Source: a virus. Taken from it: 22,190 nt of DNA. The notes under the pieces were generated by a model. That model was given only the letters and a program-made list of their open reading frames with translations. It was not told the origin of the DNA and ran no database searches. Where the stretch lies: IMG/VR virus record IMGVR_UViG_3300044641_004353, positions 1 through 22,190 of that record; one strand, given 5' to 3'. The position numbers and the translations under genes were made by a program. Numbering within the stretch: position 1 is the first letter of the stretch; each line of letters begins with the position of its first letter. Below are positions 579-17,388 of the stretch, piece after piece.

Positions 579-1094
579 TTACTTCTTACCAGCAGCTGCT
601 TCGTCTTTGGCGCGTGAACCTGCTGAAGAACCAAAATAGAATGATACCACAGCACCCCATGCAGTCCCAAGAGTACCTAGCATGACAAGCATGGCTTCAC
701 CACCACCTGCAGGCGGGAGCCCATACATGAGCATGTACATAAGCACCCCAAAGAACCCAACTGTGATTGCAGCAGCCAGTGCGCGAGGTGTCCAATCTTT
801 GGGGTTTTGCATCGCCATTTTTCTGGCGCTGTCACGATCACCCGCGCTGATACGCTCAAGATCAACATCAAGCTTTTTCATCTCAAGCTTGAAATTATTC
901 TCAGCATTTTTTAGCGCAAGCATCTGATCAGGTGTGACATTCTTAGCAGCTTCCATTAACTCTTCCTGTGTACCATCAGGCTTGCCTAATAGTGTCTCAG
1001 ATAGAGTGCGAACTGCCATGCCTGCAAGCGGTCCACCCATCGCGGTTGCGATAGATGGGGCTACAGTTTTAACAATGTTTAGAAGCTGATCCAT
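579..1094 (-). CDS. Holin, GTA-type 3-TM family
   Basis: This 171-aa protein has an amphipathic or hydrophobic N-terminus (residues 5-30), a charged helical middle with the stretch LEMKKLDVDLERISAGDRDS (about 70-89), then membrane segments at about 104-126 and 134-155 and a lysine-rich tail. The middle plus two hydrophobic C-terminal segments is the layout I know from the GTA_holin_3TM family, first described in alphaproteobacterial gene transfer agents. Such proteins open the inner membrane at the end of infection. The ATG at 1094 is preceded by GGAAG with about 8 nt spacing. It lies 4 nt after another small membrane protein and directly before the neck gene. No endolysin is visible in the window. 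The family call is from memory of the motif, without a search. Confidence 0.75.
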   Translation of the reverse strand: MDQLLNIVKTVAPSIATAMGGPLAGMAVRTLSETLLGKPDGTQEELMEAAKNVTPDQMLALKNAENNFKLEMKKLDVDLERISAGDRDSARKMAMQNPKDWTPRALAAAITVGFFGVLMYMLMYGLPPAGGGEAMLVMLGTLGTAWGAVVSFYFGSSAGSRAKDEAAAGKK

Positions 1095-1098
1095 GATC

Positions 1099-1359
1099 TT
1101 ACTTCCTTATAAAATTGGCCGATACCATTCCAACAAAGCAACCGACAACAGTTTGGAATGCGGGTCCAATAACCTCAAATATTTTGTCATTGCTTACATC
1201 AGGGTGAAATATGCTAATAAGCAAAACGAAAACCACAGAAACCATGATTGTAGCAAGTGACATTACAGAAATTCTTGCTACAAAATTTGAATTTTGCACG
1301 GCAAGTGCTTGTGCATCGGGTTGTGGTGCTGCAGGCGCAGCTTCTTTATTCTCAGCCAT
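1099..1359 (-). CDS. Small two-TM membrane protein, possible holin partner
   Basis: The protein is 86 aa from the chosen ATG at 1359. Residues 1-24 are Ala/Pro/Gln-rich and polar. A first hydrophobic segment covers about 28-51 and a second about 63-83, followed by a short basic end (IRK). The frame also has an ATG at 1368, but the GGAGG Shine-Dalgarno abuts that codon. It is placed 9 nt before the ATG at 1359, so the shorter start is preferred. The gene ends 4 nt before the holin, suggesting a joint lysis cassette. It could be an antiholin, a second holin or another envelope protein. I do not recognise a named family. A degenerate late promoter lies upstream at 1414-1421. Confidence 0.7.
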   Translation of the reverse strand: MAENKEAAPAAPQPDAQALAVQNSNFVARISVMSLATIMVSVVFVLLISIFHPDVSNDKIFEVIGPAFQTVVGCFVGMVSANFIRK

Positions 1360-1413
1360 ATGAGGCATCCTCCAACTATACTATTAACGACATTGTATAG
1401 CTAGATCACTGCC

Positions 1414-1421: not shown

Positions 1422-2061
1422 TTCTTGCCACTACTACAGATGTTATGAATTTAAATGTATCTTGATTATTTACACCCCATACACTATTATATTGTTTAGC
1501 GAAAAATACATCACTACAAGTTATTTGCGATCTAAGATCATCAGCATTATAGATGGGGTTCCCATATCTCATTTTCATATTACTTGTACCAGATACAGAA
1601 ACTAATGTCCCCTTAGGTAAATTTGGCAATAGTTCATCAAATGGTAGAAGCATGTTTATTGAGGGTACTATTATAATATTACTATTATTTGTATACCTCA
1701 TGATATCATCAAAAACCACATTTTTTCTTTCATATGTAACATTAATATTTGAATATAATTGTTTTATTGTTTGACCTATAGTTATAACTGATCTATCATG
1801 ATCTAGCATTGTTATATTTTTTATCTTACCTGAAATACTTAATACTTCTAAAAGAGTAAGTGAAAACCAAGATGCCAATACAATAACATTATCATTATCG
1901 CCGATATTATCAGAGATTACACAAGCTGATTCATATTCTGGTAATGAATAAGTTTTTGATATGCTATTTCGTATTATTTTAGTAAAGGGCCCAGGGTATT
2001 GAGACATAAGATAGCTTGCCTTATCATTAACGCCTATTTTAATTTCATCATATGTCATCAT
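1417..2061 (-). CDS. Class I SAM methyltransferase-like protein
   Basis: The protein is 214 aa from the ATG at 2061. That start has GGGAAAG about 3-5 nt upstream. The longer ATG at 2100 has no Shine-Dalgarno and would overlap the preceding gene by 53 nt, against 14 nt here. A Rossmann-like half follows the usual order: a beta strand NVIVLASWFS at about residues 58-67, a helix, then ITMLDHD at about 83-89, where the acidic residue would bind the SAM ribose. A later strand NIIIVPSINM (about 128-137) is followed by LPKGTLVSVSG. Similar proteins occur among late genes of T4-like marine phages. The usual glycine motif (GxGxG) is absent and LASWFS stands in its place, so catalysis is uncertain. Base composition is AT-rich, like the neighbouring glycosyltransferases. 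Confidence 0.6.
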   Translation of the reverse strand: MMTYDEIKIGVNDKASYLMSQYPGPFTKIIRNSISKTYSLPEYESACVISDNIGDNDNVIVLASWFSLTLLEVLSISGKIKNITMLDHDRSVITIGQTIKQLYSNINVTYERKNVVFDDIMRYTNNSNIIIVPSINMLLPFDELLPNLPKGTLVSVSGTSNMKMRYGNPIYNADDLRSQITCSDVFFAKQYNSVWGVNNQDTFKFITSVVVARI

Positions 2062-2785
2062 GACTTTCCCACAATTGTTTGACCCAACCCTTAACCTCAT
2101 TCAAATCAAAACCAACACCATGAGAATTATTGAATAGACATATTTTATAATCTTCGCGGTATTTGCCTACACTGATATCATCAGGCCAAGATGCACCAGC
2201 ATTATAGGTATAGACTAAATTTCTTGGGTGATATGAATATTTACCCTCTTGTAAATAAAATAGAGAATGATCTAAGCTCCAGTATATTTTTGAAATTTTA
2301 GCCATATTTTGTTTATAGAATTCAAATATGTGATTTGCTTGATTGCCTTGCCATGTCACAAATGATGAGTTTATTGCGCAATAATTGTGTCCATAATGCG
2401 TAATAATTGCTTCAGGTGAAGCCCAATAATTATAGATTAATCTAAATTCAGTAAAACATTCATCAAGATAATTTGTAATATTACCATGTATTAAGATATC
2501 CAAATCTAATAGAACATAAGGCCCTTGACAATCTAAGAACCCGTCTTTAAATGAGCTTAATTTTTCTATGGTAAACATACTTTCTGAAGTACCACGAAAT
2601 TCGCTCAATTCATCAATATTATTGATAATAACTTCTCTTCTAATGTCAGTTGGGTCATCAGTTATACAATGAAAATAAAATGATTTATTATAATTGCGCT
2701 GAATCATTGAATATAAACGATTCACATAAACGGCTGGGTATTTTGACCCCCATTTGTAGCATATAAATCTAATTAAATTATTCAT
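2048..2785 (-). CDS. Putative GT-A glycosyltransferase
   Basis: This 245-aa protein has the layout of a GT-A nucleotide-sugar transferase. An N-terminal alpha/beta part contains FHCITDD (about 38-44). A hydrophobic strand then runs into the DLD motif at 94-96, which in this fold binds the metal and sugar nucleotide. Next come AINSSFVTWQG (137-147) and a late Asp at 172. The inverted neighbour at 2799-3422 has DLD, NSS and W-G in the same order, so the two look like paralogues. ATG at 2785 has GAGGG upstream inside a palindrome shared with that neighbour. Known GT-A enzymes transfer sugars from NDP-sugars; the acceptor here is unknown. The coding region is AT-rich. No signal peptide or membrane anchor is seen. 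Confidence 0.65.
   Translation of the reverse strand: MNNLIRFICYKWGSKYPAVYVNRLYSMIQRNYNKSFYFHCITDDPTDIRREVIINNIDELSEFRGTSESMFTIEKLSSFKDGFLDCQGPYVLLDLDILIHGNITNYLDECFTEFRLIYNYWASPEAIITHYGHNYCAINSSFVTWQGNQANHIFEFYKQNMAKISKIYWSLDHSLFYLQEGKYSYHPRNLVYTYNAGASWPDDISVGKYREDYKICLFNNSHGVGFDLNEVKGWVKQLWESHDDI
2762..2769 (+). promoter_or_regulatory. Possible late promoter for the inverted gene
   Basis: The plus strand reads TATAAATC, one mismatch (last base) from TATAAATA, and ends 29 nt before the plus-strand ATG at 2799. It lies inside the start of the minus-strand glycosyltransferase. The region is AT-rich, so a chance match is quite possible. Confidence 0.3.
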
Positions 2786-2798: not shown

Positions 2799-3422
2799 AT
2801 GTATCATCTTTATACAATATTAGTTAGACCAAAATATGATGTAAGCTTTGTTAAAGCAATACATGAATCATTTAGAAAAAATATATCATCCTCATTTGTA
2901 CATACTTGTCTAACCGACAATATCGAACAATTTGAAAATGAAAACTTTTGCAATTTAATCGATATAAGTCATCATAATCTCCCAACATTTTGGAATAAAA
3001 TGTTATTCTTCAAAAAAGATGAGATATGCAAAAATAACGAAAAGTGTATCTTTTTCGATCTAGATTCTATGATACTAAAAGATTTAACACCTATGTTACA
3101 TCATGTAAATGATTTCTTATTAGTAGGGCAAAACCCAAATAAAATTATTGACATTTATTTAACAAAAGCTATGAATAGCCCAGAACATGGTAGACATTTA
3201 ACTATATTGAATTCATCGTGCATGATGTGGTACGGTGGTCAACATCATGCACTGTGGGAAAAATTTGATGTCAATCGAGAAGATAATATGCTATACTACT
3301 ACGGTAACGATGAGTTTATAACATTCGAATATCAATCAAATTATAAACTCATCGATAGGAAATGGGTCTTTGGCGCAGGGTCTGAAAAAACTGCAATATA
3401 TTCTAATAAAATTAGATATTAG
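2799..3422 (+). CDS. Putative glycosyltransferase, the only plus-strand gene
   Basis: This 207-aa protein carries the same skeleton as its divergent neighbour: HTCLTD (35-40), a hydrophobic strand into DLD (87-89), LNSSCMMWYGG (137-147) and an acidic C-terminal segment. This points to a GT-A fold using an NDP-sugar and a divalent metal. It is the only gene on the plus strand. Its start is 13 nt from the neighbour's start, and its stop TAG overlaps the stop of the convergent oxygenase gene (shared bases TTAG, 3419-3422). Composition is very AT-rich; the line from 2821 to 2880 counts 15 G+C in 60. Read-through from either side would give antisense RNA. Acceptor and donor are unknown. It is shorter than typical GT-A enzymes and may need a partner. 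Confidence 0.65.
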   Translation: MYHLYTILVRPKYDVSFVKAIHESFRKNISSSFVHTCLTDNIEQFENENFCNLIDISHHNLPTFWNKMLFFKKDEICKNNEKCIFFDLDSMILKDLTPMLHHVNDFLLVGQNPNKIIDIYLTKAMNSPEHGRHLTILNSSCMMWYGGQHHALWEKFDVNREDNMLYYYGNDEFITFEYQSNYKLIDRKWVFGAGSEKTAIYSNKIRY

Positions 3423-4060
3423 GGTGACCCAATTTCGTCTACCATATTGTCCCAAATATTCTTGTCATAAATTATGTAACTAAGAGTTACCCGATCACAG
3501 TCTGTGCGTGCTGCGTGCCAATAAACTTTATCTGGTTCGCTAAAGGGCCCAAAATACCCAACCTTAATATTCCAACCAGGGTTATCCTTATATTCTGTAA
3601 TTTCTTTTGTCTTCAGATCGTAGGAATAAAATGCACCATCACCTGTCTTACTATAAGACATGATGATATTATAGCCTGGAGCATTACCATTATTATGCCA
3701 ACCTATAAAACCTTGAGATGGGTAGTACATCTTTAGTGCATTATTTCTTGCGCCAAGAAATGAAATTAGATCATCATCAAGTTTTCTAAGAACTGGAGCA
3801 AAATGTTTGGGTAGAGGTTTTTCTGTTGGGTATGGGTTCATGTCTATCCCATAACTGTCTCTAGGGAAACCAAATCGATCCGGTGTTGGTAGAGCGTCCT
3901 CAAGATACTGACGCTCTGTGCATTCAATGTAGCTTAATTGCTTCTTAAAATCATCTCGGCGATTGATAGTTAGTACAGATAAATCTTGCTTAAAAAACCA
4001 ATCGATGAAATTATCTAAGATCGATAGAAGATCCGGATTGATCTTTGATAGCGTGTGCAT
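3419..4060 (-). CDS. 2OG-Fe(II) oxygenase-like protein
   Basis: This 213-aa protein ends in a double-stranded beta-helix region with the marks of 2-oxoglutarate/Fe(II) oxygenases. These are FIGWHNNGNAPGYNI (118-132, first His H122), a strand-rich middle, then VYWHAARTDCDRVTLSY (179-195), with the second His at 182 and the 2OG-binding Arg at 190. The usual HxD carboxylate is replaced by HNN. Related marine-phage proteins that I recall show a similar H-x-N, so this may be a family trait and not a defect. Members hydroxylate proteins, lipids or small molecules; the substrate here is unknown. The ATG at 4060 has a purine-rich GGGAGCAGG upstream and overlaps the previous gene by 50 nt. The gene converges tail-to-tail with the plus-strand glycosyltransferase. 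Confidence 0.65.
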   Translation of the reverse strand: MHTLSKINPDLLSILDNFIDWFFKQDLSVLTINRRDDFKKQLSYIECTERQYLEDALPTPDRFGFPRDSYGIDMNPYPTEKPLPKHFAPVLRKLDDDLISFLGARNNALKMYYPSQGFIGWHNNGNAPGYNIIMSYSKTGDGAFYSYDLKTKEITEYKDNPGWNIKVGYFGPFSEPDKVYWHAARTDCDRVTLSYIIYDKNIWDNMVDEIGSP

Positions 4061-4769
4061 TAACCTGCTCCCTAGGTATAGTATAATGATAAACCACTAT
4101 CGGTTTATCGGTTTCACTCTCTTTATATACCCAGATAAAATTCCATCTTGCATCATCTGGTAATACTGTCACTTTAATTGATGGGTCTTCTTTCAATAGT
4201 CGCCAAAAAGTAAACTGATCCCATGGCTTCATTTTAGGGTCGTATTCTGGGTATGGCCATGGGTTAGCTGTAGTTTGTAATTGATATTCGCTCCACCATT
4301 TTCTCATAAATTCTAAATTTTTTTCAGTCTTGCGGTATAGAAACATACCGCAATGATGAATCATATTTTCTGTATCATTAACTTTAGTACCTTTACCCGC
4401 ATACTCTCTGATATTTGTTATTGCGATATCATTATTACCAATAAAATCAAATATCTGAGAAATATCTTCATGCCATATTTCGGTATCACAATCGAGATAC
4501 AGAGTAATATCATATGGGGTTTTATCAAGTGCCCATAACTTGGCTCTGTAATGAACTGGTATACCGGTAATTACGTTTTCAAAAAGAAAACGATCTTTAT
4601 CGTCAATGAAATCACTATGCGTGAATAAAGTTATTCTAGCATCGGGGTAATGATCTTTAATTGATACAGCGCATCTGATTGCTGCCTTATAATAGGCAAC
4701 CGACACAGATGCAATTAAGATGATACCTCTACTAGTATCAACCTTCTGTTGTTTGGTTTGCCTGGGCAT
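4011..4769 (-). CDS. Putative GT-A glycosyltransferase
   Basis: The protein is 252 aa from the ATG at 4769. Upstream in-frame TTG at 4805 would overlap the previous gene much further, whereas the ATG has AAAAGG about 7 nt before it. It begins with a GT-A type strand GIILIASVS. It then shows helix AAIRCAVSIKDHYPDARITL, the nucleotide-sugar/metal motif LYLDCDTEI (DCD about 93-95), and IHHCGMFLYRK followed by a WW pair and PWDQFTFW. These are features of the glycosyltransferase-8/DUF616-like group of phage and bacterial enzymes. It is more diverged from the two DLD proteins than they are from each other. Its likely role is adding a sugar to a virion or host glycan. The acceptor cannot be read from sequence. 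Confidence 0.65.
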   Translation of the reverse strand: MPRQTKQQKVDTSRGIILIASVSVAYYKAAIRCAVSIKDHYPDARITLFTHSDFIDDKDRFLFENVITGIPVHYRAKLWALDKTPYDITLYLDCDTEIWHEDISQIFDFIGNNDIAITNIREYAGKGTKVNDTENMIHHCGMFLYRKTEKNLEFMRKWWSEYQLQTTANPWPYPEYDPKMKPWDQFTFWRLLKEDPSIKVTVLPDDARWNFIWVYKESETDKPIVVYHYTIPREQVNAHAIKDQSGSSIDLR

Positions 4770-5199
4770 CCGCAGCCTTTTCAATGCTATAAGATTCTGA
4801 AGCAATCAATGATGCTAAAACTGTAACTTCGATAATTGAAGTTGCTTTTCTAAGACGCGACTTAAGCTTAGTATTTGTAGAATTTCTTACAAGATCAATT
4901 TCAAATGCATCGCTCTTTGCCATAAAAAGAGCTTCGCGCCGCATATTATCTACACGTCTCTGATCGTCCATCTCGCGCTTAAGTCGATTTTCTTCATGAA
5001 CTCTGACTTTAGCCGCAGTATTCTCATCAATTTGCTCAGGTGTAAAGTTTGCAAATATCTCATCCCAATCAGGGTTACCCTCATCGGTTTGAGATACTGA
5101 TGCGGTTACTATACCACCATCAACATACTTGAATTTACATACTACTTGATTTTTTAGATTTGAAGACCAATATGGGTCTAAAATTTGTCTTTCGCTCAT
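4738..5199 (-). CDS. Conserved hypothetical protein downstream of the fibre
   Basis: This 153-aa protein has an N-terminal beta-rich part (NQVVCKFKYVDGGIVTASVS, about 17-36), an acidic segment and then a long charged helix (about 62-100, many Arg/Glu). After that come a helical pair and a polar tail. I recall proteins of this layout beside fibre genes in T4-like marine phages, but no function is known to me. Its place, 1 nt after the tetrapeptide fibre stop, would suit a fibre chaperone or attachment factor; that is inference. The ATG at 5199 has AAGGA about 10 nt upstream. The C-terminal 32 nt overlap the following glycosyltransferase. Confidence 0.6.
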   Translation of the reverse strand: MSERQILDPYWSSNLKNQVVCKFKYVDGGIVTASVSQTDEGNPDWDEIFANFTPEQIDENTAAKVRVHEENRLKREMDDQRRVDNMRREALFMAKSDAFEIDLVRNSTNTKLKSRLRKATSIIEVTVLASLIASESYSIEKAADAQANQTTEG

Positions 5200-5200
5200 T

Positions 5201-6313
5201 TTATGCTGTCCTTACCCAAAGACTGACATTTGTTACTGTCTCTAGCGAGGCCTGAATGGTTGCGCCCGTATAGAATCCTGTGTAGTTACCAGTATAACTA
5301 CCAGTAAACCCACTAGAATATGTACCAGAATAAAACCCTGTAAAGTTCCCAGTATAGAACCCCGTATAGAATCCTGTGAAGAACCCTGTATAGAACCCAG
5401 TAAAGTTGCCGCCAAATCTACCAGCAAAGAAGAGTGCGTAAGTTCCCGCAAATGCTTGCGATCTAAATCTAGTATACGCACCAGCAAATGCGGTAGAATA
5501 TGTACCAGCATAACTTCCCGTAAAGTTACCAGTATATGTACCAGAATAAAACCCAGTATATGTACCGGAATAACTTTGATCCGAACGTATATTTCTGGTA
5601 TCATCAAATGCCGCACCAACAGTGGTCCAAGTACCGGGAGTTGGTGCAGTTGCTTGAAGTCTATACGTACCAATACCAGTCGCTATGATTCTATTTCTCA
5701 TACGATTGGTTAGTGAACGAATTTCTGCATCTGTCATCTGTTGCACAGATTTTGTCGGGCTTGTTTGATACTTTAGTGGGCGTATTGTAGTGGGTGCAGT
5801 TGCGTCTGTTCTACGCCATAAAGTTGAAGTGTTTGTCCCTGCACTGGTTGTATTTGTAATTGTACCTATTGATGTCCAAGTTCCAACAGGTGATGATGGT
5901 TGTAAAGAATATGATCCAACACCACCAGCAACTAATGTGCTTAGTGCCCTAGAAATAATAGAATCATTTAACTGTGTATCATTTTGCTGTCTAACACCAG
6001 TTGAAGAATATTCTACTGGTCTAGTTAATGATTCTGTTGCGCTTGTTGTAATATCTTGCTTAAGAGTATATGTTACCGAATCAATCGTTGTGCCGACCGG
6101 GTGTGCACCCACAGAAAAAGGTCTATTTGTATCAACAAAGGTACCAATTGATGTGCCTGTTGCACCATCAACATTTACTGTACCCAACCCACTGTTAGTT
6201 GAAGCAAAATCTTTAAGAATAACATCGACAGCATAATCCATTTCCGAAGTGGTCATCGTCTGAAGACCTTGGAATGTAGCCCCTGATGATTTAACTCTTA
6301 ATGGGTTGGCCAT
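5201..6313 (-). CDS. Fibre-like protein with aromatic tetrapeptide repeat
   Basis: This 370-aa protein has two clear parts. Residues 5-240 hold three divergent copies of one module. They begin near 5, 98 and 178, each with R-(P)-(V/L) K/E-Y/S, then a Q-rich helix start, GxGTY/GLGTV and GTWTxxG or GTSxxG. Residues 247-350 are 26 consecutive tetrapeptides of the form x-[Y/F]-[T/S/A]-G without a phase break. Position 2 is Tyr or Phe in 25 of 26, and position 4 is Gly in 21. A 20-residue tail ends SLWVRTA. Repetitive, Thr/Gly/aromatic-rich proteins at this position are typical of tail fibres, so host contact is the likely role. The ATG at 6313 has GAGGA about 6 nt upstream. I cannot name a family for the repeat. 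Confidence 0.65.
   Translation of the reverse strand: MANPLRVKSSGATFQGLQTMTTSEMDYAVDVILKDFASTNSGLGTVNVDGATGTSIGTFVDTNRPFSVGAHPVGTTIDSVTYTLKQDITTSATESLTRPVEYSSTGVRQQNDTQLNDSIISRALSTLVAGGVGSYSLQPSSPVGTWTSIGTITNTTSAGTNTSTLWRRTDATAPTTIRPLKYQTSPTKSVQQMTDAEIRSLTNRMRNRIIATGIGTYRLQATAPTPGTWTTVGAAFDDTRNIRSDQSYSGTYTGFYSGTYTGNFTGSYAGTYSTAFAGAYTRFRSQAFAGTYALFFAGRFGGNFTGFYTGFFTGFYTGFYTGNFTGFYSGTYSSGFTGSYTGNYTGFYTGATIQASLETVTNVSLWVRTA
5264..5575 (-). repeat. 12-nt period coding repeat (26 units)
   Basis: Twenty-six contiguous 12-bp units encode the tetrapeptides x-[Y/F]-[T/S/A]-G at residues 247-350 of the fibre-like protein. Codons vary between units, so the protein pattern is kept better than the DNA. 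The middle units (about residues 271-298) are the most diverged. Confidence 0.9.
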
Positions 6314-6900: not shown

Positions 6901-7119
6901 TTATGACTGTCCCTTGGACCCGAGTATCTGTCTTAGCAGGTCCTTAATCTCAGCGACATCCTGCTTCAAATTATTTATCTCGTCTAATTTATCCTGTTCG
7001 CGCTTTCTTCTGGCACGATATGCTTCAAGCCCGGAATTGTCAGTAGAGATAATGGCCTGGCATGCTTTATCCTTTACATACCCAGGCTCATTTTCTATCT
7101 TTACTAATTCAGGTTTCAT
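6901..7119 (-). CDS. Small coiled-coil protein
   Basis: This 72-aa protein has an N-terminal segment LVKIENEPGYVKDKACQAII (5-24), a polybasic stretch RARRKREQDKL (about 35-45) and a C-terminal heptad-like helix INNLKQDVAEIKDLLRQIL (48-66). Its start overlaps the stop of the giant structural gene in an ATGA, so translation is probably coupled. Its stop touches the ATG of the fibre gene. Small proteins like this sit at the same place in other T4-like marine phages, where the N-terminal part is well kept. A role in fibre assembly or as a trimerising adaptor fits the context, but nothing in the sequence proves it. Confidence 0.65.
   Translation of the reverse strand: MKPELVKIENEPGYVKDKACQAIISTDNSGLEAYRARRKREQDKLDEINNLKQDVAEIKDLLRQILGSKGQS
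6972..6979 (-). promoter_or_regulatory. Possible intragenic late promoter before the short fibre gene
   Basis: The minus strand reads GATAAATA, an exact late octamer, inside the 72-aa gene and 71 nt upstream of the next ATG (6900). The spacing is longer than the 21-22 nt seen elsewhere, so it may be a chance product of the coding sequence. Confidence 0.35.
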
Positions 7120-10100
7120 CGTTGTAGCGCAATCACTCTAATATCATCAAGACGTGGTGGGTTTGTTGTGGTAGAGTTTGTAAGCACTACCTTAATCGAT
7201 AGGTACTTATAACCAACAAACCGCGATCTTGCAGAATTTCGATATTCAATGATATTTGCATTAGTTGTGTTTGCACCAGACAATACCGCATTGCTATAAT
7301 TTGGTACAACAAAAACATATTCTTTAAAGTCATCAACAATATCTGTACTAGAGAATACAGTTGATGATGTAAACCCTGTTTCTGTCGTATATGACATTGG
7401 GATCCAACGCGCATTATCAAACGTATCGCTATCTTCACGATGCAGAATCTTATAGTATACGTTTATGTTAGACCCAGGTGGGCGATATGCGCTAACATAT
7501 ACGCGGATATCTTCTGCATCCTGACCATCTGCAAGAGTCATCTTACGGGTAATATATTTTGCTAGAGCATTACCACCACTTGCTGTATTGGCTTCACCTG
7601 TGGTATCATTATTAATGAGATTTTGAACCGTAATGGCTGAAATTCTCTTGACATCAAGAACGGGTGACGCATATCTGCTAGTGCTAGTGAATAGTGCTCT
7701 AACTTCAGCGGAACGACCCGCAGCCATAGATGCACCACTAATTGATGTATTTGATTCCATGCTGCGGCTTAGAATATATCTTGGTGCGGTAAATTCGGTA
7801 TCAGCATTTACATTCAAGTCAAAATAGTTTGAATCCCTTGATGTATTGCTTGTAGCAAATTTACCTGAGAATCGAATATTCGTATTCGTTGGAGTTAAGA
7901 AGTCAGAAGAAATATTGATTATATCGGCCTGCAAACGATCAAGTCTAACTATGCGAGCAATATAACCATTAGTTTGACCTCTAATCCAGTTATTTGCAAA
8001 GAATACCCGACCTGCGCCCGATGCAGGGCCGCTATTTGTAAATGACACATTAGCTAGATGCAGATAGGTATTTGCAAAGGATACTGAATCATAGTAAATT
8101 GCTTTACCAGTTGGTGTTGTCGCAGATGTAATACCACCAGTTGAATTACCAACTATTATACCAGTTGTTGAATTTGTATTGCGAATGCGAATCCGCTCTC
8201 CGCCCACAAATTTAGTATTCAGAGATACATTTCTTACTCTAAGCTGTGTAGAGCTAAAGCGAGAGATTGTTCCTGTTGCACCAGATGTCATACCTTGAAC
8301 GAAGGTGACACCAGTATTTACTGCCTTAGTATTAGCAAATGTACCAACAAGAATCGTCTCGCCGTGAATATCTTCACCCGTGCGAATAAATGCGGCTGAT
8401 ACATTTGCAATCTGATAATAATCTCTTAGCTCATTCTTAAATATTACTGTGCCTGTTGTTGAGGTATTAAAGTTTGCCACATAAAGGGTAAACTTTAGAT
8501 CCTCTTCCTGAATTGGGCTATACACAATATCATTTGATGATGCTGATAGAATACCAGCGGCCGGCTGCGATGAAATTCTGTTACCAGTAATTCTATCAAC
8601 CTCACCAAGACGAGCAATGTGCATATTATAATTTGGATTGCTACCAACCGGCTTTATCACGATAGCGTAATCGCGTGCATTTTGCAGATATACAGGCGAT
8701 GGGAAATATACAGGTGTTGGTGCAGAACCATTATCACTTGTATTAATTTCGCCAGGCTGTAGAATTACGCGACTAAACGGAATCATGCGACCAGTAATGG
8801 TATTTGTTATAGGATCGATTGCACGAATATGGATTTCACAACCAATTTGTGTATCTTTGGTAGCAAAGAATAGATCAACCTTTGTTACAAATGCACCAGA
8901 CCCTGATATCTTACCAATAGCATTAGTATCCATGGTAAATGATTGAGCAATTGGGTCAATAATTGTCTGATTGACAGCAATTGTATTTCTAGTATCTAAA
9001 ACAGATTCGGAAACAGTCTCACCTGTTCTGGTGCTTATGATTGTATTTTGTACATCTTGCGTAAGACCTTCAGCCGTATATACAGATTCGGCCGATGTTA
9101 AAAATGTACCTTGTGTGGTATCATTTGTGGGTGAGTCCGTTAGTCTAAAAATGCGGCTACCAGTTCTAAATCTCATATTTTCATTAGATGGAAGACGGAA
9201 TATACCATACACATTACCATTTGCTACGGAAACAAGCCGTCCGCCCTCATTTGCAGTATTTGCAAATGAAGCATTGGTTGGGGTTACATATTGAGAAACA
9301 GGTGTGCCGTCAAAAAATGGATAAATTCTAGATGTAGGTTTAATACCTCTGCCTATAAATCTAATCGAACGTGATCTCATAAAAGGCTGGATATTTGAAC
9401 TTACAACTCTATTACCTGTGCTAGTTGTAGTGGTTACAGGGACTAGTGATGTGCGTGTCCCGCTTCTAACCTGACTTGATGTTGTTGTTGTCGTTACTCT
9501 AAATGCTTGAGCAACACCAAGGAATTGTCTATCAACAGTAGTTGATTGAGCAACAGTTTGCCAATCACCCCATGTTGTACCCCATGCTCCACTTTGCTCC
9601 CAATTATCATCAAAATTATCAATATTAACAAGAACATCGGGAAGCTGAACAGTATCCACCCAGTAGTCCGAAGGTGGATCTAGAGTAACGCTACCATTCC
9701 ATTTCCAGAATAGACCTGCGGCATTTCTTGTTGTAGAATTATAGGGCTGGCTCACAAAAACTTCGTGACTATATGGCAGGGTTATAATTTCACCAGCAGA
9801 TGGCAGATACACACCTGAAATTGTCGATGAAACAGGGCCGCTAGAAATTGTTGATGTTGTAACAAAATTACCTGTTGCATTTTCAACATACAACTTATTG
9901 CCGACTTTAAATCTTAGTGTTGCTGTTGTTCCACCAGAACTTACTGTAGAACCATTTGCAAAAGCTGATGCTGAGTTGGCAATAAACACTATCTGATCAC
10001 GTGCAACACCTGCTGACGTAACATTGGTACGCACAATATTAGATGAATTTGCTGCATTATAAAAGAGTTCAATATTATCAAGTTTAAACGGAGGTCTTGC

Positions 10101-13100
10101 CTCACCATAATTGGAATCAATTGAAATCTTATAATCCGAATTCTTTACATCACCAACATTATGGCCATAGAAAGGATCTACAAGGATACCGTTTTTAAAT
10201 CTATTATTACCAGAAGAATCTTGAATAAGAAGATTTTTAGTATCCATTTCAAGTAGATTTAAAGTAGTATAATATTCAAGATTCTCAATTCTATCGCGTA
10301 AAACCCCAATATCTCTCATTGTAAAGCGAGGATTTTTTACAGGAAATACTCTAGAAGCTAAATCGCCTCTATTAACTCTGCGTGCTTGCTCATCCGCAAG
10401 AGACGGATATGGTGAAAGATTTATAGTCGCAATTGACATAGTATCTTTCGACTCATCCGGTGTAATCGGATTAAGTGATGGTACGCCCTTTACAGCAGTA
10501 AAATTACCATCACGATCAAGAACAATTCTATCATTTCGGAGTAGATAATAATCAAGATCGGCAGTAAAGTTTTCACCTGGAGCCATAAATCTCAGACCAC
10601 CTGACGGCTGATCAAAGGTGGTTGAAAGTCTTGGATTAATTGATATATTGGTAAGTGATGTAACACCATTTGCGGTATCCGTCATACGAGGACGAATATC
10701 AATACAATCTCTCAGGTCAAATCTATTACCAGTCCGTGATGAGGTATAGACAGGAATTTCATATGTAAATATTTTTGTGGTATCGGTTGCAGCATTTGTA
10801 TCATCGACTGGGTAAGAATCGACAGAAAAATATCCAACACCAGTTGAATAGCTATGAGTAAAGTGATCAAGAGTAACTAGAAGTCGATCACCTGTTGACA
10901 GAGAAATGCCGCTACCAGACTTACGCACAAGACGAGCATGACTATAAAAGTCATCAAGCATCCCAGTATCAAGGGTAAAGTTATTTGTTACATCTGTACC
11001 TTCGGTAAGAGACGCAAAGTTTGACCCAGACTTTCTACGAACAGACACTAGTTTGAAACCGTCAGATAGACCAAGTGGCCATGGCCCGGTGGTGTTTGCA
11101 ACATAAGATGTGCCACCACCCGCACCAATTCTAACTTGTACGCGACGATTTCTATTAACTGTCTTTGCGGCCTCTTGCCCATCAACCTTATTCAGCTCCG
11201 TAATTACGGTAGCATTTAGTGATGATCCAAGAGTTTCTTGAAGATTAAAATCTGTCTGTGTCGATGATGACACGGTAATTGTTCTTGCAGATCCAGTTGA
11301 ACCAGAGCCACCAAAATCTAATACCTGACCTTGACGAATAAGCTTGTGAACTCGCATTCCGGTGCGAGTAGCGCCGGCCGTAGTCAGAGTGTTTAGAGAT
11401 GCCGAAGAAACAGATGTAACAATAAAGTCACCAGTGTTTGCCACGCGAATTAGTTCGCCTGCACTAAATCTAGTAGTTAGATCGATTGCGCTATTAGAAC
11501 GGGTTATTGTATTTGATCCGTTTGTTGTGCTAAGTCTTAGCGTGCTAATTGCTCCGGTATTAGACGAGCCGCGTGCTGTAATATAATAATTTGAGCGACC
11601 TATAGCGGTTGATAGCGCACCACTACCTGAGAATGTCTCGCTAGCTGTACCAGTTGATACAGATGCAGTACCACCGGTACCAAATGTAATATCAAAGGAT
11701 TTTTCAAATCTAAAATTATTATCAACGTTACCTGTTGTATCTCTTAGTCGTCTAATTGCATTAGCAGGAAGACGGAAGATGGCAATATCAAATGATGGGT
11801 CTGTTGTATTTGCATTTCTACCGTTTGACCCGAGAATATCGGCTTTACCGTTAGCCTGACCAGCGCCAGCACTAAACATGATTGACTGAGCATTGGCAAA
11901 ACCAAACCCGGCATTCATATTAATATCTGTCAGATATACCCTATATTGTGCTGAAGGGAGACCCGGCGTTCCTGCATGATATTCAATTGCACGAACTCTT
12001 GCGGTACCAATCTCAGAACCAGAGAATGAAGTGAGAGAATAATTTCTGGTTGAAATTGCATTGGCCTGCTGCGATCTAAGGCTGACTCTACCCTGAGCAT
12101 TTACATCCCAAGAACCAACAACATTGTCCGCTATGACATAATTACCATAATCAATTAAAGCACTAGCTTGCTCAACTGAATTATAATCGGTTGCTTTGTC
12201 AATTGGTATGCGCTTACTTTGTAAAAGTTCAATATCAAACCCCTGAACATATGATTTTCCTGGGTTTACTTCAACAACCAACTTAGATGCGCTTCCACCC
12301 TCTCCCGCAGTAAAGACACCCTGGTTATTACCAGTCAATAGATGCTCACGAAGTCTAGGTGAAAGACCACTTACAATATAATTACCAGATTCATCATAAG
12401 TTCTTTGAGCAATATAATCCTTAAGAAGATTGTATTGCGGAGAATCTGAGCGTGATTGAATCTCACCACCCTTAAGCTGAATTAGCTCAATAAAATTATT
12501 GCTAGCTGTTGCATTAGTATCAATGCGAGTAAATTGCGCCGTTAGCTTAAGGCGCGCCGCCCCTGGTGCGGCAAAGTTATAAGCACCTGATGCAGGATCA
12601 AGTAGAGTTGAATCATCGGCTTCTTTAACAATAGTCTCGATTACATTGTAACCAATACGTGCCGACCCATTTGAGCTATATTTTGATATAACAAGAAGAT
12701 CGGGATCGGTTCGAATGAAATGATCCTTAGCATAAATTACGCCTTCATTAATTTTCATTAGGGCCGAATAGCCTGTGGCACCAGATGAAATTAGATTGGC
12801 TGTTAGGCCACCACCACCGGTTGCGGTAATAACTTCGCCGTTAGCAAATGAACGGCGATTGCTATTACCACCAGTAAATTTGACAAATAAAGTTTTAAAA
12901 TTTGGTGTATTTGCTTCTGATCCATCATTTACTTTAATGACGCTAGCTGACACACCAGATGTTGCACCAGTTACGGTTCTATTCAAAAATGCATAGACAT
13001 TTACTGAAGTAGTACCATTTGAAGCTGCATCGCGCAACTTCATATAAACTACATCTTTGTCTAGAAGGGTTTGGCAGCCTCTTACGATACTACCTTCTTT

Positions 13101-13292
13101 AAAAATATGCTCGGCAAAACGATCAATCTGATTTTGTAGAATTGACTGAATCTGTGTAAGCTCGCGCGCTTGAACGGCAAGCCCAGGGCGAAACAGAATG
13201 CGATGAAAATTCTTTGACTCATTAAAATCATCATAATACGGGTCAACATTTAGATCCGTAGAAATCGTGACGGTGTTAGCAATAGACGCCAT
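7116..13292 (-). CDS. Giant baseplate/tail structural protein, DUF4815-like
   Basis: This 2058-aa protein starts with a conserved helix-rich segment, FRPGLAVQARELTQIQSI (about 34-51) and EHIFKEGSIVRG (61-72), which I associate with DUF4815-type phage structural proteins. A beta-module with SGVSASV and FANGEVI follows at about 104-170. The central part has many Thr/Ser/Asn-rich beta stretches. Near the middle are RSRSIRFIGRGIKPTSRIYP and FFDGTPVSQYVTP. Later come VDLFFATKDTQIGCEIHIR and the FPSPVYL element. Such giant proteins are virion components of T4-like marine phages. It lies after gp8 where T4 has gp9-gp12, suggesting the baseplate periphery and fibre attachment. No tape-measure-like long coiled coil is seen. 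ATG at 13292 lies 15 nt after gp8; its Shine-Dalgarno AAGGGA is distant. Confidence 0.75.
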   Translation of the reverse strand: MASIANTVTISTDLNVDPYYDDFNESKNFHRILFRPGLAVQARELTQIQSILQNQIDRFAEHIFKEGSIVRGCQTLLDKDVVYMKLRDAASNGTTSVNVYAFLNRTVTGATSGVSASVIKVNDGSEANTPNFKTLFVKFTGGNSNRRSFANGEVITATGGGGLTANLISSGATGYSALMKINEGVIYAKDHFIRTDPDLLVISKYSSNGSARIGYNVIETIVKEADDSTLLDPASGAYNFAAPGAARLKLTAQFTRIDTNATASNNFIELIQLKGGEIQSRSDSPQYNLLKDYIAQRTYDESGNYIVSGLSPRLREHLLTGNNQGVFTAGEGGSASKLVVEVNPGKSYVQGFDIELLQSKRIPIDKATDYNSVEQASALIDYGNYVIADNVVGSWDVNAQGRVSLRSQQANAISTRNYSLTSFSGSEIGTARVRAIEYHAGTPGLPSAQYRVYLTDINMNAGFGFANAQSIMFSAGAGQANGKADILGSNGRNANTTDPSFDIAIFRLPANAIRRLRDTTGNVDNNFRFEKSFDITFGTGGTASVSTGTASETFSGSGALSTAIGRSNYYITARGSSNTGAISTLRLSTTNGSNTITRSNSAIDLTTRFSAGELIRVANTGDFIVTSVSSASLNTLTTAGATRTGMRVHKLIRQGQVLDFGGSGSTGSARTITVSSSTQTDFNLQETLGSSLNATVITELNKVDGQEAAKTVNRNRRVQVRIGAGGGTSYVANTTGPWPLGLSDGFKLVSVRRKSGSNFASLTEGTDVTNNFTLDTGMLDDFYSHARLVRKSGSGISLSTGDRLLVTLDHFTHSYSTGVGYFSVDSYPVDDTNAATDTTKIFTYEIPVYTSSRTGNRFDLRDCIDIRPRMTDTANGVTSLTNISINPRLSTTFDQPSGGLRFMAPGENFTADLDYYLLRNDRIVLDRDGNFTAVKGVPSLNPITPDESKDTMSIATINLSPYPSLADEQARRVNRGDLASRVFPVKNPRFTMRDIGVLRDRIENLEYYTTLNLLEMDTKNLLIQDSSGNNRFKNGILVDPFYGHNVGDVKNSDYKISIDSNYGEARPPFKLDNIELFYNAANSSNIVRTNVTSAGVARDQIVFIANSASAFANGSTVSSGGTTATLRFKVGNKLYVENATGNFVTTSTISSGPVSSTISGVYLPSAGEIITLPYSHEVFVSQPYNSTTRNAAGLFWKWNGSVTLDPPSDYWVDTVQLPDVLVNIDNFDDNWEQSGAWGTTWGDWQTVAQSTTVDRQFLGVAQAFRVTTTTTSSQVRSGTRTSLVPVTTTTSTGNRVVSSNIQPFMRSRSIRFIGRGIKPTSRIYPFFDGTPVSQYVTPTNASFANTANEGGRLVSVANGNVYGIFRLPSNENMRFRTGSRIFRLTDSPTNDTTQGTFLTSAESVYTAEGLTQDVQNTIISTRTGETVSESVLDTRNTIAVNQTIIDPIAQSFTMDTNAIGKISGSGAFVTKVDLFFATKDTQIGCEIHIRAIDPITNTITGRMIPFSRVILQPGEINTSDNGSAPTPVYFPSPVYLQNARDYAIVIKPVGSNPNYNMHIARLGEVDRITGNRISSQPAAGILSASSNDIVYSPIQEEDLKFTLYVANFNTSTTGTVIFKNELRDYYQIANVSAAFIRTGEDIHGETILVGTFANTKAVNTGVTFVQGMTSGATGTISRFSSTQLRVRNVSLNTKFVGGERIRIRNTNSTTGIIVGNSTGGITSATTPTGKAIYYDSVSFANTYLHLANVSFTNSGPASGAGRVFFANNWIRGQTNGYIARIVRLDRLQADIINISSDFLTPTNTNIRFSGKFATSNTSRDSNYFDLNVNADTEFTAPRYILSRSMESNTSISGASMAAGRSAEVRALFTSTSRYASPVLDVKRISAITVQNLINNDTTGEANTASGGNALAKYITRKMTLADGQDAEDIRVYVSAYRPPGSNINVYYKILHREDSDTFDNARWIPMSYTTETGFTSSTVFSSTDIVDDFKEYVFVVPNYSNAVLSGANTTNANIIEYRNSARSRFVGYKYLSIKVVLTNSTTTNPPRLDDIRVIALQR

Positions 13293-13307: not shown

Positions 13308-14876
13308 TTAAAACGTCACGACAAAACGAAATTCTTCAAGTTGATCTGGTTTTCTGACAATTGGCTGATTGCTTTCTATGTATAAGACATCCCCAGTATT
13401 TTCTCTAACTGCCGGCTTTATCGCATTGATAATAGTAGCGGTTACCCCGGATGACGAAGATGTCAATGATTCTGTTTGTGCAAACCCACCACCAATACCA
13501 TTGGTTGTCAAACGAACAACACGAAGAACACCCTTTGTGCGTGCTGAATTAGTATTCGCAAAATATACAACTCTGGCTTTAGCGCCACTAGTACCACCAG
13601 TTACAATTTCATCGGCGGTGTAGTCGCCTGACACATTTTGTAGCACTATACGATGACATTGATCAATTACCGATGCATTGGCTACAGGGCCACTTCTAAG
13701 CTTAGGGTCTCTAATTATACCAATGGTTCTAAAATCATTATTGGTTGGGAATGTATTTGACTCGCCGCCAGTTACAGATACAGACAGCATTAAATCTTTA
13801 GCATATAATTCATTACGCGCATTACTACCATGACCACCTCTCGGTGATATGATAGCTTGTGCGATAGCACCTGACCCATATGATGAATTTGCTATGATGG
13901 CCACATTTGCTTCGCCATAACTACGACCGTTAGTTATCATGGTGATTTTGCGAACTTGCCCACCCAATGTGTTAGAAACATGTGCGGTCGCGCGTATGGA
14001 TGCTGTTGCACCACTATCACCTCTAATTATAACTGAGGGTGCAACAGAATATATTGATGATGTATTTGGTGTAATAGTAAATGCACTGTTGACGGTAACT
14101 ACTCTACCAGTACCAACGTATTTTACTATGCGACGAAGCTGACCAACACCAAGACCGGCTGAAATATACAATGTTGACCCAGTATATGCACCATCAATCT
14201 GCAATGCATTAGTTGCCAATCTTACTGTTGTAGAATTTGTTACAGACAAGAATGTATTTGAAGTGCTTATATAACCACTACCGTTAGCAGTAACTAAAAC
14301 ATGATCTATTGTCCCATTAGCTGCGGCCTGCTGCACAGACCACTGTGCGCTTCCGTTGTTAGCTGTTAGCTGTCTAACTGGAATATAAGTGCTATTTAAA
14401 AATTTCTGCGCGTCGGCCGTAGTAATAGCAAATAAGAATTTCCAACGATATCCATCGGCTGTGCTAACAACTGACGTGCTAATACCAGAGGGTTCTTCTG
14501 TTGATACTGCACCTCTATTATTGTCTATGCACTTATAGACATTATTTTCTGACGTAAGCACGTAAAATTGTCTATCATATAAATTTGCAGTTCTATCGTT
14601 ATATTCAGTATATACAGTATTGTTTGTCCAATTATATCGAGGTGCAATTGAAATAATATCGGCTGAATTGATTCGTTTTAGCGCAACCATATCTCGATAT
14701 ATGTTAAATTCTGTAGTAAATTGATTATTTGTTACTGCGGGTGGTGATGAGTCATTAGCAAAAGGTGTTACCCCACCCATAAACATGTAAAGCCGAGTCG
14801 GCGAAGGTTCATCAAATGATTCCTTCAGCTGATCGGCCGTGTTTAAACGAAAGAATGGGGTGATTCTATTTGTCAT
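13308..14876 (-). CDS. 8: Baseplate wedge protein gp8-like
   Basis: This 522-aa protein has the gp8 signature: YDRQFYVLTSENNVYKCIDN (100-119), then the Gly/Thr-rich loop and STADGYRWKFLFAI (138-151). In T4, gp8 joins gp7, gp10 and gp53 in the baseplate wedge. T4 gp8 is about 334 aa. The extra length here lies in the C-terminal half, which is beta-rich and contains GGTSGAKARVVYF and SSSSGVTATI modules (about 425-482). Similar modules occur in both flanking structural proteins. The ATG at 14876 has AGGAAAAGG about 5 nt upstream, and an exact late-promoter octamer lies 22 nt away. The gene follows the gp7-position gene as in T4. Confidence 0.85.
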   Translation of the reverse strand: MTNRITPFFRLNTADQLKESFDEPSPTRLYMFMGGVTPFANDSSPPAVTNNQFTTEFNIYRDMVALKRINSADIISIAPRYNWTNNTVYTEYNDRTANLYDRQFYVLTSENNVYKCIDNNRGAVSTEEPSGISTSVVSTADGYRWKFLFAITTADAQKFLNSTYIPVRQLTANNGSAQWSVQQAAANGTIDHVLVTANGSGYISTSNTFLSVTNSTTVRLATNALQIDGAYTGSTLYISAGLGVGQLRRIVKYVGTGRVVTVNSAFTITPNTSSIYSVAPSVIIRGDSGATASIRATAHVSNTLGGQVRKITMITNGRSYGEANVAIIANSSYGSGAIAQAIISPRGGHGSNARNELYAKDLMLSVSVTGGESNTFPTNNDFRTIGIIRDPKLRSGPVANASVIDQCHRIVLQNVSGDYTADEIVTGGTSGAKARVVYFANTNSARTKGVLRVVRLTTNGIGGGFAQTESLTSSSSGVTATIINAIKPAVRENTGDVLYIESNQPIVRKPDQLEEFRFVVTF

Positions 14877-14910: not shown

Positions 14911-17388
14911 CTAAGTTGACCTTTGGTAAGTATAAACTATATCGGATGCTGTACCCACAATAAACATTTTCTTTTGATCTGTGCTTAGTGCAATACCGTG
15001 TGGTGCAGATTCTTGAGCACCAATACTTAAACTCTTATTATCATATGTTGCTGTAGAAATATCCCAAGCTGTTGATAGTGTATATTGATAAACCGTGTCA
15101 TTAGTGCTACCAGCAACAAGCACTTTCTTACCATCACTACTAAATGCCATTGCAAGTGGGCTGTTTTCTTGTGATGCTACCGATAAGAATTTAGACGCAT
15201 ATGTTGCTGTAGAAACATCCCAGGGTGATGATAGTGTATATTGAAATATTCTATCATTTGTAGAACCAAGAATATACATCTTGGTGCCATCATCACTAAA
15301 GGCTAGTGATTGCGGGTTGGTGTCTTGGGCAGATACGTCTTTGCTCTTAGATGCATATGTTGCTGTAGAAACATCCCATGCCGTAGAAAGTGAATACTGA
15401 TAAACGGTATCTCTATCAATACCAACAATATACATTGTATGACCTTCAGGGTGAAACTGAACCTCGCGGGGGTCTTTATCACCGGGGCCAGCATTTGACG
15501 TATTTGCAATCGATATACTTTTATTCATATAAGTTGCTGTTGATACGTCAAATGACGTTGATAATTTATATTGATATACTCTGTCATTATTTAAACCCAT
15601 AATATACATTCGTCTACCCGATGGACTAAATGTCAGACCTGTAGGTTGAGAATCTTGCGAAATAAACACGTTTGCTGATCTTAGCGTTGCTTTATCAACA
15701 CTTAATGTAATTGGTAAAATTGCTTCTTGATTATAAAGAATATTATGATTGTGTGATAGATTTGTATTAGATACAAATTGATAGCTACCAAACATCTTGG
15801 AGCCTGATGGGTGCAACACTCTCTTGACAACATCTCTATATCGATCTACAATTTCAGTAACCTTAATCAGATATGAATATTCTTGATAGAAATCATTATC
15901 TTGTAGTCTCATATTCCAGCTAAGGAATCCTTTGGTATCAATATAACGTCCTGGCTGAGTTATAACGCCCGCAATAATAGGTTTAATATCAGCATTATAT
16001 GTTGTATTTCTAATGGTAAATCGTTGATTACCACCCAAGTCAGTATTTTGATCTATTGTTGGCCCAGTGCCGCGAGAATTGACTACAATAGCATCAGCAA
16101 ATTTATCAAATGATGCATCAGATGATACTATCTCTAGGCCTGTAATTGCACCAGGTGCACGTATTGCGATGATAACAGCATCATCACCCTTAAGTCTACC
16201 AGCCTCACCAGCAAGTCCTTGCTCAAATACAATTTGATCGCGCGCCACTACGGTTGGGAGTTCAGGAACATAACCACTACCAACACTAGTGACAGAAATA
16301 GCATTAATTGTACCAGCAACGGAGTTTGAAAAGTGCAAAGATGATGCTAACGTTGATGATATATTGGCAACTGCTAAGTTTGCAAACACAGCAGCCGTAT
16401 TAGTACCAAGAGACACAAAAGTAGGGCCCGTATTAAGAAGTACGTTTGATAGCGGACCAATTTGATCTGTGTTTAAGCTAACAAATGTGGTATTAGATAG
16501 GGAAGATACTATTGCAGCCGCACCCGTTCCAGACCCACCATTTACTGATATTACGGTTTGCCCTAAACGATAACCGCTACCACCTCTATTGATACGAAAT
16601 GATACAGGCCCTCGATCATTTGTTGATGATACTCTTGCCGACGCAGTAGCACCGGATGATGTTATTACAACAGCATCACCAGATTGATGGAATGCCCCCG
16701 GGTCGACAACTTCTTCAATACCAATCAAGCTACCAAATGCTGAAGTAATTGTTGCATTGTTGCCTAAATCATCCGATACTGTTTCACCATCAACAAATGT
16801 ACCGACAACATTTTCAACAAGTAGTTCAAATAATGGGTGACCAAGAACAACTACGCGAGTAACCTTTTGTACTCTGGCCGTAGCACCTGAAACAGAGCCG
16901 ACAATATTTCTACCATCAAGATTTGTCGGTAATGTTGAATATGGGTTACCAACTCTAAGAATTGTTTCTCTCACCCATCTACCATCAGACGCTCTTAGAA
17001 TGTAATCGCCTGGGTAAACAAGTTCTATCTGCTTATTGAATAGTGCATAGAACAGAAAATCATATGAAAATTTTGACCCTCTAGTTCTATAGAAATCTCT
17101 GATATGCTTGACTAGTAATCTTTTGTCAGCCAAAACATCCTTGGGGATGTTTATCATAAACTCTCGACGAAAATATTCAACAAATGAATCTAGTGTTCGG
17201 TCTATATCTTGATAGTCAATCAAGCTGCGAGTCGCATTACCCGCCTGCCCAGACTGCTCCATAAATTCGTAATACGCTTTTAAGAACGAAACAAATCTGG
17301 GTCCTTCTTCGCGTATGAACGCAGGAAACTGCGACTCAATGAGCGGAGATAATTTTACGAAGGTTTCTTCGGCGCCTGATATTGCCAT
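14911..17388 (-). CDS. Baseplate wedge-type protein at gp7 position, with C-terminal propeller
   Basis: This 825-aa protein begins with a helical domain: LSPLIESQFPAFIREEGPRF (13-32), then YYEFMEQSG and HIRDFYRTRGSKFSYDFLFY (95-114). That start is conserved in the protein found between gp6 and gp8 of T4-like marine phages. The middle is beta-rich, with a VSGATAR...FVDGETV module at about 164-217 and more SGATASARVSS-type stretches. Residues 580-825 are five repeats, about 52 residues each, of the form S-P-x-x-x-F-S-x-D-G-x-x-M-Y-I-x-G, DxVYQYxLS and WDVSTATY; the last is truncated. This looks like a beta-propeller. T4 gp7 (1032 aa) links the wedge to its periphery, and position suggests the same job. 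Sequence alone does not show homology to gp7. The start lies 1 nt after the gp6 stop. Confidence 0.75.
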   Translation of the reverse strand: MAISGAEETFVKLSPLIESQFPAFIREEGPRFVSFLKAYYEFMEQSGQAGNATRSLIDYQDIDRTLDSFVEYFRREFMINIPKDVLADKRLLVKHIRDFYRTRGSKFSYDFLFYALFNKQIELVYPGDYILRASDGRWVRETILRVGNPYSTLPTNLDGRNIVGSVSGATARVQKVTRVVVLGHPLFELLVENVVGTFVDGETVSDDLGNNATITSAFGSLIGIEEVVDPGAFHQSGDAVVITSSGATASARVSSTNDRGPVSFRINRGGSGYRLGQTVISVNGGSGTGAAAIVSSLSNTTFVSLNTDQIGPLSNVLLNTGPTFVSLGTNTAAVFANLAVANISSTLASSLHFSNSVAGTINAISVTSVGSGYVPELPTVVARDQIVFEQGLAGEAGRLKGDDAVIIAIRAPGAITGLEIVSSDASFDKFADAIVVNSRGTGPTIDQNTDLGGNQRFTIRNTTYNADIKPIIAGVITQPGRYIDTKGFLSWNMRLQDNDFYQEYSYLIKVTEIVDRYRDVVKRVLHPSGSKMFGSYQFVSNTNLSHNHNILYNQEAILPITLSVDKATLRSANVFISQDSQPTGLTFSPSGRRMYIMGLNNDRVYQYKLSTSFDVSTATYMNKSISIANTSNAGPGDKDPREVQFHPEGHTMYIVGIDRDTVYQYSLSTAWDVSTATYASKSKDVSAQDTNPQSLAFSDDGTKMYILGSTNDRIFQYTLSSPWDVSTATYASKFLSVASQENSPLAMAFSSDGKKVLVAGSTNDTVYQYTLSTAWDISTATYDNKSLSIGAQESAPHGIALSTDQKKMFIVGTASDIVYTYQRST
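14914..15651 (-). repeat. Five tandem propeller repeats, 156-nt period
   Basis: The repeats encode residues 580-825 of the 825-aa protein. The unit length is 58, 52, 52, 52 and 32 residues; the first has an insertion rich in Asn and Gly. The DNA period of 156 nt is visible as the recurring plus-strand string atgttgctgtagaaa near 15046, 15202 and 15358. Confidence 0.85.

Follow-up and report, generated by a model that had tools for sequence, protein, structure and literature searches.

An aromatic tetrapeptide array that probably forms a mirror-symmetric beta-hairpin in a putative tail fibre of T4-like phages

Introduction

The window analyzed here, a virus record of 22,190 bases, contains a gene for a protein in which aromatic tetrapeptides follow one another in strict phase. 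This raises the question of which fold a period of four with an aromatic residue in every unit supports, and what such a protein does in a phage. Here, we identify the protein, at a probability of roughly 0.77, as the tail fibre or an adhesin of some T4-like phage, with the hairpin of a third domain, D3, expanded into a long antiparallel beta-hairpin with a conserved tip, probably as part of an oligomeric needle.

Results

The repeat is a protein-level pattern

The gene and the parts of its array are as follows.

5201..6313, minus strand: putative aromatic-hairpin fibre protein, 370 residues, an open reading frame with ATG and 91 non-redundant relatives in IMG/VR
5441..5575, minus strand: array arm 1, x-[YF]-[TSA]-G, residues 247-291, assigned from the repeat phase
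5405..5440, minus strand: putative apical tip motif YALFFAGRFGGN, residues 292-303, around the array midpoint at 298.5; the central motif of relatives' arrays of 72-564 residues
5264..5404, minus strand: array arm 2, returning, residues 304-350, assigned from the repeat phase; position 1 is also aromatic near the tip

In the translated open reading frame, the array spans residues 247-350 (complement 5264-5575) as 26 consecutive tetrapeptides with zero insertions or deletions. Position 1 is mixed (F9 T5 N4 S3 A3 R1 G1), position 2 is aromatic in 25 of the 26 units (Y16 F9 R1), position 3 is T14 S6 A5 G1, and position 4 is Gly in 21 of 26. In 100,000 shuffles of the same residues, the best phase held at most 18 aromatics compared with the 25 observed, and no shuffle matched the array, which confirms the regularity noted in the preliminary description. 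The DNA of the array contains only patchy, imperfect repeats (period 12-36, 72-78% match), and synonymous codons vary across the units. Thus, it is the protein-level pattern that is conserved, as expected from the earlier proposal that selection acts on that pattern. The period of four also upholds the distinction previously drawn from collagen, with its G-x-y period of three, and from pentapeptide repeats, with their period of five. The array does vary along its length, in that residues 292-303 at its centre form a motif conserved among the relatives.

The family recurs in environmental phages

As the preliminary description had suggested, the repeat sits in a fibre-like protein and recurs, forming a family in environmental phages of IMG/VR. 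This family comprises 91 non-redundant proteins, counted as those with a complete C-terminus after removal of near-copies, and their arrays extend from 44 to over 1,400 residues. Searches of Pfam, PHROGs and the PDB with the single sequence or an alignment gave no match to the fibre protein, a protein query found no relative in GTDB genomes, and among 50,697 phage records of an isolate collection only one, Phage C48C1 (Kyanoviridae), holds a protein relative. In the literature, we found no description of the aromatic tetrapeptide repeat or of phage C48C1. Altogether, the array protein is a member of a widespread, unnamed family of phage proteins that are probably tail fibres. Seven residue types, G, Y, T, S, A, F and N, account for ~84% of the residues in the family arrays; charged residues are scarce, and not one of the 28,895 array residues of the relatives is a cysteine. 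The photosystem gene PF00124 was sought in nine carrier records and found in none; therefore, we claim no cyanobacterial host.

The C48C1 protein (L083:112-10155), at 3,347 residues, combines long T-R-T-R arrays with aromatic ones, its second half also contains several additional globular segments, and mirror symmetry is not evident in it. Many phages carry adjacent, paired array genes (L024, L025, L049, L050, L053, L141, L153, L167, L168, L174, L205 and L207), and one clade has an irregular, Pro-Gly-rich (PAGPSYSNPAG) first copy.

The array is inserted in the hairpin of one domain

By profile-profile comparison, the first 246 residues of the protein comprise three homologous domains, D1, D2 and D3.

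6029..6313, minus strand: N-terminal domain copy D1, residues 1-95; D1-D2 97%, E 7e-11; D1-D3 94%, E 8e-8; AlphaFold2 pLDDT ~80-93
5762..6028, minus strand: domain copy D2, residues 96-184, with an uninterrupted hairpin ending in LWRRT, by hhalign against D3
5576..5761, minus strand: first part of D3, residues 185-246, including the outgoing strand of the hairpin base, by hhalign and the AlphaFold2 strand 236-252
5204..5263, minus strand: returning strand of D3, the C-terminus ATIQASLETVTNVSLWVRTA, residues 351-370, by the AlphaFold2 strand 344-368 (pLDDT 84-95)

The returning strand is conserved in nearly all relatives. When the array is removed, D2 and D3 match in hhalign at 99% (E 1e-18), and the alignment runs through LWRRT of D2 and the C-terminal LWVRT of D3. 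Because this match spans the junction left by the array, the sequences show the array to be an insert in the D3 hairpin, with both ends fixed to one domain.

AlphaFold2 models, all of them single-chain predictions, agree with this arrangement at its base. For the window monomer, D1 to D3 are predicted with confidence and strands 236-252 and 344-368 flank the array, which is itself left unfolded. For the short relative L114, which has an array of 48 residues, strands 236-256, 260-268, 271-280 and 284-312 form one out-and-back hairpin that turns at 269-270, adjoining the tip motif, with pLDDT above 90 at the base and 43-51 distally. The preliminary description had named two observations that would count against a structural role, loss of the four-residue phase in relatives and an unordered prediction: the relatives strongly keep the phase, whereas the array of the window monomer has a pLDDT of only ~27. 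Foldseek found no significant match for the window-protein model in the PDB or BFVD or for the short-member model in the PDB. Pore-toxin hairpins were considered as relatives of the latter and dropped because their E values are above 0.4 and the similarity reflects only a long hairpin.

The two arms are equal in length in most members and the tip is central

The tip motif Y-x-x-F-[FY]-x-G-[FYVRI] interrupts the repeats and lies at the midpoint of arrays of 72-564 residues. With one fixed apex definition for all 20 single-tip proteins, the lengths of the two arms correlate at r = 0.9975 with a median difference of 1 residue, and they are equal within four residues in 17 of the 20 (36/36 to 282/282), the unequal ones being L141 (94/113), L011 (48/59) and L019 (28/35). 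Seven of the 20 proteins were found after the motif had been fixed, and six of these have equal arms. If the apex is placed half a residue earlier, the arms become 282/282, 246/246, 178/178, 172/172, 116/116 and 114/114 and, among the shorter ones, 88/88, 82/82, 76/76, 52/52 and 40/40. Between close relatives, the two arms change in length together, with 114/114 versus 82/82 at 88% N-terminal identity and 88/88 versus 40/40 at 72%.

Arrays with other centres follow the same plan to varying degrees. Two proteins have two tip motifs; those of L012 divide its array into 48/101 and 100/49 and so form a mirrored pair. In a clade with a Pro/Gly/Glu-rich apical loop, this loop lies at 0.507-0.512 of the array, and in six very long arrays (880-1,211 residues), irregular steps cluster from ~0.42 to 0.60. 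The irregular members are the Pro-rich first paralogues L030, L048 and L051, the proteins L058, L060 and L116, and the C48C1 protein. The arms are not identical in composition: in units 8-15 residues from the apex, position 1 is aromatic in 53% of units in arm 2 versus 7% in arm 1. Thus, the two arms differ near the tip, and this region may be a contact site.

Phase breaks mirror between the arms

Phase shifts in the family arrays are mostly of the two-residue type (588 versus 233 odd shifts), so that the aromatics stay on one strand face; in many arrays, an extra dipeptide (SR, PA, TA, AK or TS) stretches one Tyr-Tyr step from 4 to 6. This preference makes the beta structure with an aromatic ladder that had been proposed earlier plausible. 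The breaks are, moreover, mirrored. In L050, they lie at 20, 42, 64, 86, 108, 134 and 156 from the start of the array and at 19, 41, 63, 85, 107, 133 and 155 from its end. Across 22 regular arrays, 102 of 161 +2 breaks are mirrored exactly in one fixed register, compared with 9.8 ± 4.2 (maximum 24 in 2,000 trials) for random placement, figures that describe a pattern rather than a formal probability because the relatives are not independent of one another. A spacing of 22 residues recurs among many of the breaks, and translational symmetry therefore explains part of them. As a replacement for mirror symmetry it was rejected: of 83 arm-1 breaks, the best among 13 shifts accounts for 40, compared with 51 for one fixed mirror register, and the irregular break patterns of L050, L022, L173 and L193 fit the mirror better than translation. 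The break positions fit both a register with Tyr opposite Tyr (i+j = n-2) and one with Tyr opposite Gly (i+j = n). In the former, the conserved apical Gly is the exact centre, and this together with the ends of the AlphaFold2 strands leads us to lean toward Tyr opposite Tyr.

Because both array ends lie in one domain and the arms are mirrored, it is well supported that the array is an antiparallel, mirror-symmetric hairpin with equal arms and an apical tip. The beta-solenoid proposed earlier, a one-way coil with its ends far apart, finds no support in an array whose two ends re-enter the same domain.

Discussion

A model for the array protein

We suggest that the three homologous domains form the base of a fibre and that the hairpin loop of the third has been expanded to a very long antiparallel beta-hairpin. 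In this model, x-[YF]-[TSA]-G units would run out as arm 1, turn at the Y-x-x-F-[FY]-x-G-x tip and come back as arm 2, after which the C-terminus would close the third domain. If the arms are in beta conformation over their full length, one strand face would carry the aromatic residues and Gly and the other Thr/Ser and the variable residue, with the aromatic face probably buried between the hairpins of an oligomer to give a needle. Trimers are the usual state of tail fibres. On the virion, such a needle would place the tip and the extra aromatics of arm 2 at the host surface, where the tip may bind the host, and hairpin length would evolve by matched changes in both arms.

The common view is that slippage lets protein repeats lengthen freely. 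In this family, array length is locked in that arms of 36 to 282 residues are equal to ~1 residue in most members. Because the arms stay equal, a repeat gained in one must be matched in the other. The equality of the arms is, thus, a strong structural constraint that can be read from sequence alone and a testable case of evolution by paired indels. Should the needle model hold, fibre length and tip can change independently in these phages, which bears on host reach and host choice by aquatic T4-like phages. The array unit is also attractive as a protein material, being almost uncharged, free of cysteine and with one aromatic per four residues.

Genomic setting and possible modification of the fibre

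Upstream of the array gene in transcription order lie T4-type baseplate genes, identified with Pfam and PHROGs.

20486-21724: gp5, baseplate gene
19234-19632: gp25, baseplate gene
17390-19234: gp6, baseplate gene
14911-17388, minus strand: baseplate wedge protein of 825 residues with a fused C-terminal beta-propeller (PHROG 17744; PF10282, E 8e-11)
13308-14876: gp8, baseplate gene
7116-13292: DUF4815 protein of 2,058 residues

The fusion of a wedge protein to a beta-propeller is unusual. The array gene follows the gene of a 192-residue protein, and its position makes a function as tail fibre likely. It also starts a conserved cassette.

4738..5199, minus strand: companion protein of 153 residues, directly downstream of the array gene; homologue in 68 of 76 loci
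4011..4805, minus strand: glycosyltransferase of GT-A type, with DxD and a distant likeness to glycogenin; 73 of 76 loci have a homologue
3419..4060, minus strand: putative 2OG-Fe(II) oxygenase-like protein, with homologues at 69 of the 76 loci

The order of the cassette directly after the array gene is the same in most of the 76 loci, several of which lie on contigs that end early. C48C1 is the only record of the isolate collection in which all three cassette proteins have clear relatives, in the same order, and one uncultured record there has a partial match to 37% of the oxygenase-like protein. From its gene position, the companion could be a fibre chaperone; a link to known chaperones was not found.

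The cassette gives rise to a different emphasis, compatible with the hairpin fold, in which the hairpin serves chiefly to carry sugars: the glycosyltransferase and the putative oxygenase would modify Tyr, Ser or Thr of the array to give a mucin-like, glycan-coated fibre. Several observations favour this idea. First, fibre, companion, glycosyltransferase and oxygenase-like protein follow one another in this order in C48C1 and in 68-73 of 76 loci. Second, the glycosyltransferase has an invariant D105xD107 across relatives and a PF03407 match at 3.3e-7 in one relative, and the first PDB match of its profile is glycogenin, a Tyr glucosyltransferase. However, the glycogenin match is marginal (E 0.007), and gene linkage by itself does not identify a substrate. 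Moreover, the oxygenase is assigned from conserved residues, an invariant WHxN ... H ... R, together with a weak 2OG match of a single relative (to phrog_61, at 0.007), and it has HxN in place of the usual HxD. Modification of the fibre by the cassette enzymes is a reasonable hypothesis; that carrying sugars is the main role of the hairpin is possible but unlikely. We regard as somewhat more doubtful again the comprehensive proposal of a new viral fibre architecture, a length-tunable, mirror-symmetric aromatic/glycine beta-hairpin needle whose arms grow together and whose Tyr or Ser/Thr residues are hydroxylated and glycosylated by the two cassette enzymes.

Two further glycosyltransferase-like genes in opposite orientations (2048-2785, minus strand, and 2799-3422, plus strand; weak phrog_1962) have homologues near the array gene in 48 and 37 of the 76 loci, respectively. 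At 579-1368 (minus strand) lie genes for two small membrane-like proteins, one matching phrog_1544 and an unmatched one of 89 residues, perhaps holin-like.

Comparison with known systems

In T4 gp37, the collar domain D10 consists of residues 811-881 and 1010-1026 and encloses the needle (PMC6957217). As in that needle, the chain of the array protein appears to exit a base domain, reach a tip in mid-excursion and return to complete the same domain, given the split of D3 by the array, the AlphaFold2 strands at the base and a tip motif at the array midpoint. In gp37, the tip is receptor-binding, and six antiparallel strands make up the homotrimeric needle of the gp37 type. Here, by contrast, the repeats are aromatic tetrapeptides and the arms are much longer and variable. 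The His-x-His iron sites of the gp37-type needle are lacking, with a single HxH in the 28,895 array residues, and neither a PDB sequence match nor a Foldseek match points to gp37 or its collar fold. We therefore consider the array protein to resemble the gp37 needle in chain topology, judged by this comparison, without belonging to the same family.

The composition of the array invites a second comparison. The low-complexity segments of FUS and EWS, built on [G/S]Y[G/S], are similarly composed of Tyr, Gly, Ser and Thr, and the array could likewise be a disordered, sticky loop in which many weak Tyr contacts join surfaces or particles. The restricted alphabet, the near absence of charge, the lack of Cys and the very low pLDDT of the window monomer array all fit such a loop. 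However, FUS and EWS segments have no strict phase, arm symmetry or tip, and a disordered loop gives no reason for a strict period of four, mostly two-residue breaks or a central motif, or for arms that are equal to ~1 residue over an 8-fold range of length. We consider this reading quite improbable.

The C-terminal beta-helix of T4 gp5 and VgrG is a one-way, triple-stranded helix of octapeptides, VxGxxxxx. The array shares with it short beta repeats and Gly in regular phase but differs in that its chain returns to its own base and the C-terminal strand belongs to D3 instead of ending a linear array distally. Least probable of all is, thus, a linear intertwined beta-helix or beta-solenoid of the gp5 type with the tip as a mere spacer, because the array is anchored at both ends in one domain and the breaks of one arm are mirrored in the other, a feature that a one-way helix would not call for, even though aliphatic tetrapeptide arrays (GNVTGNLTG), which resemble gp5 repeats, do occur in linear position in a structural protein of S-RIM2.

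In S-RIM2 isolates, only this aliphatic NVTG array resembles the aromatic repeat. Like the NVTG arrays of cyanophage structural proteins, of which S-RIM2 SWTG_00067 is an example, the aromatic array repeats with a period of four in which position 2 is hydrophobic and positions 3-4 are T-G. The SWTG_00067 array differs in being aliphatic, shorter and linear in the chain, and neither an apical tip motif nor homologous base domains were seen in that protein. The aliphatic array of the S-RIM2 structural protein (L070:3402-9140) possibly follows the same structural principle as the aromatic one.
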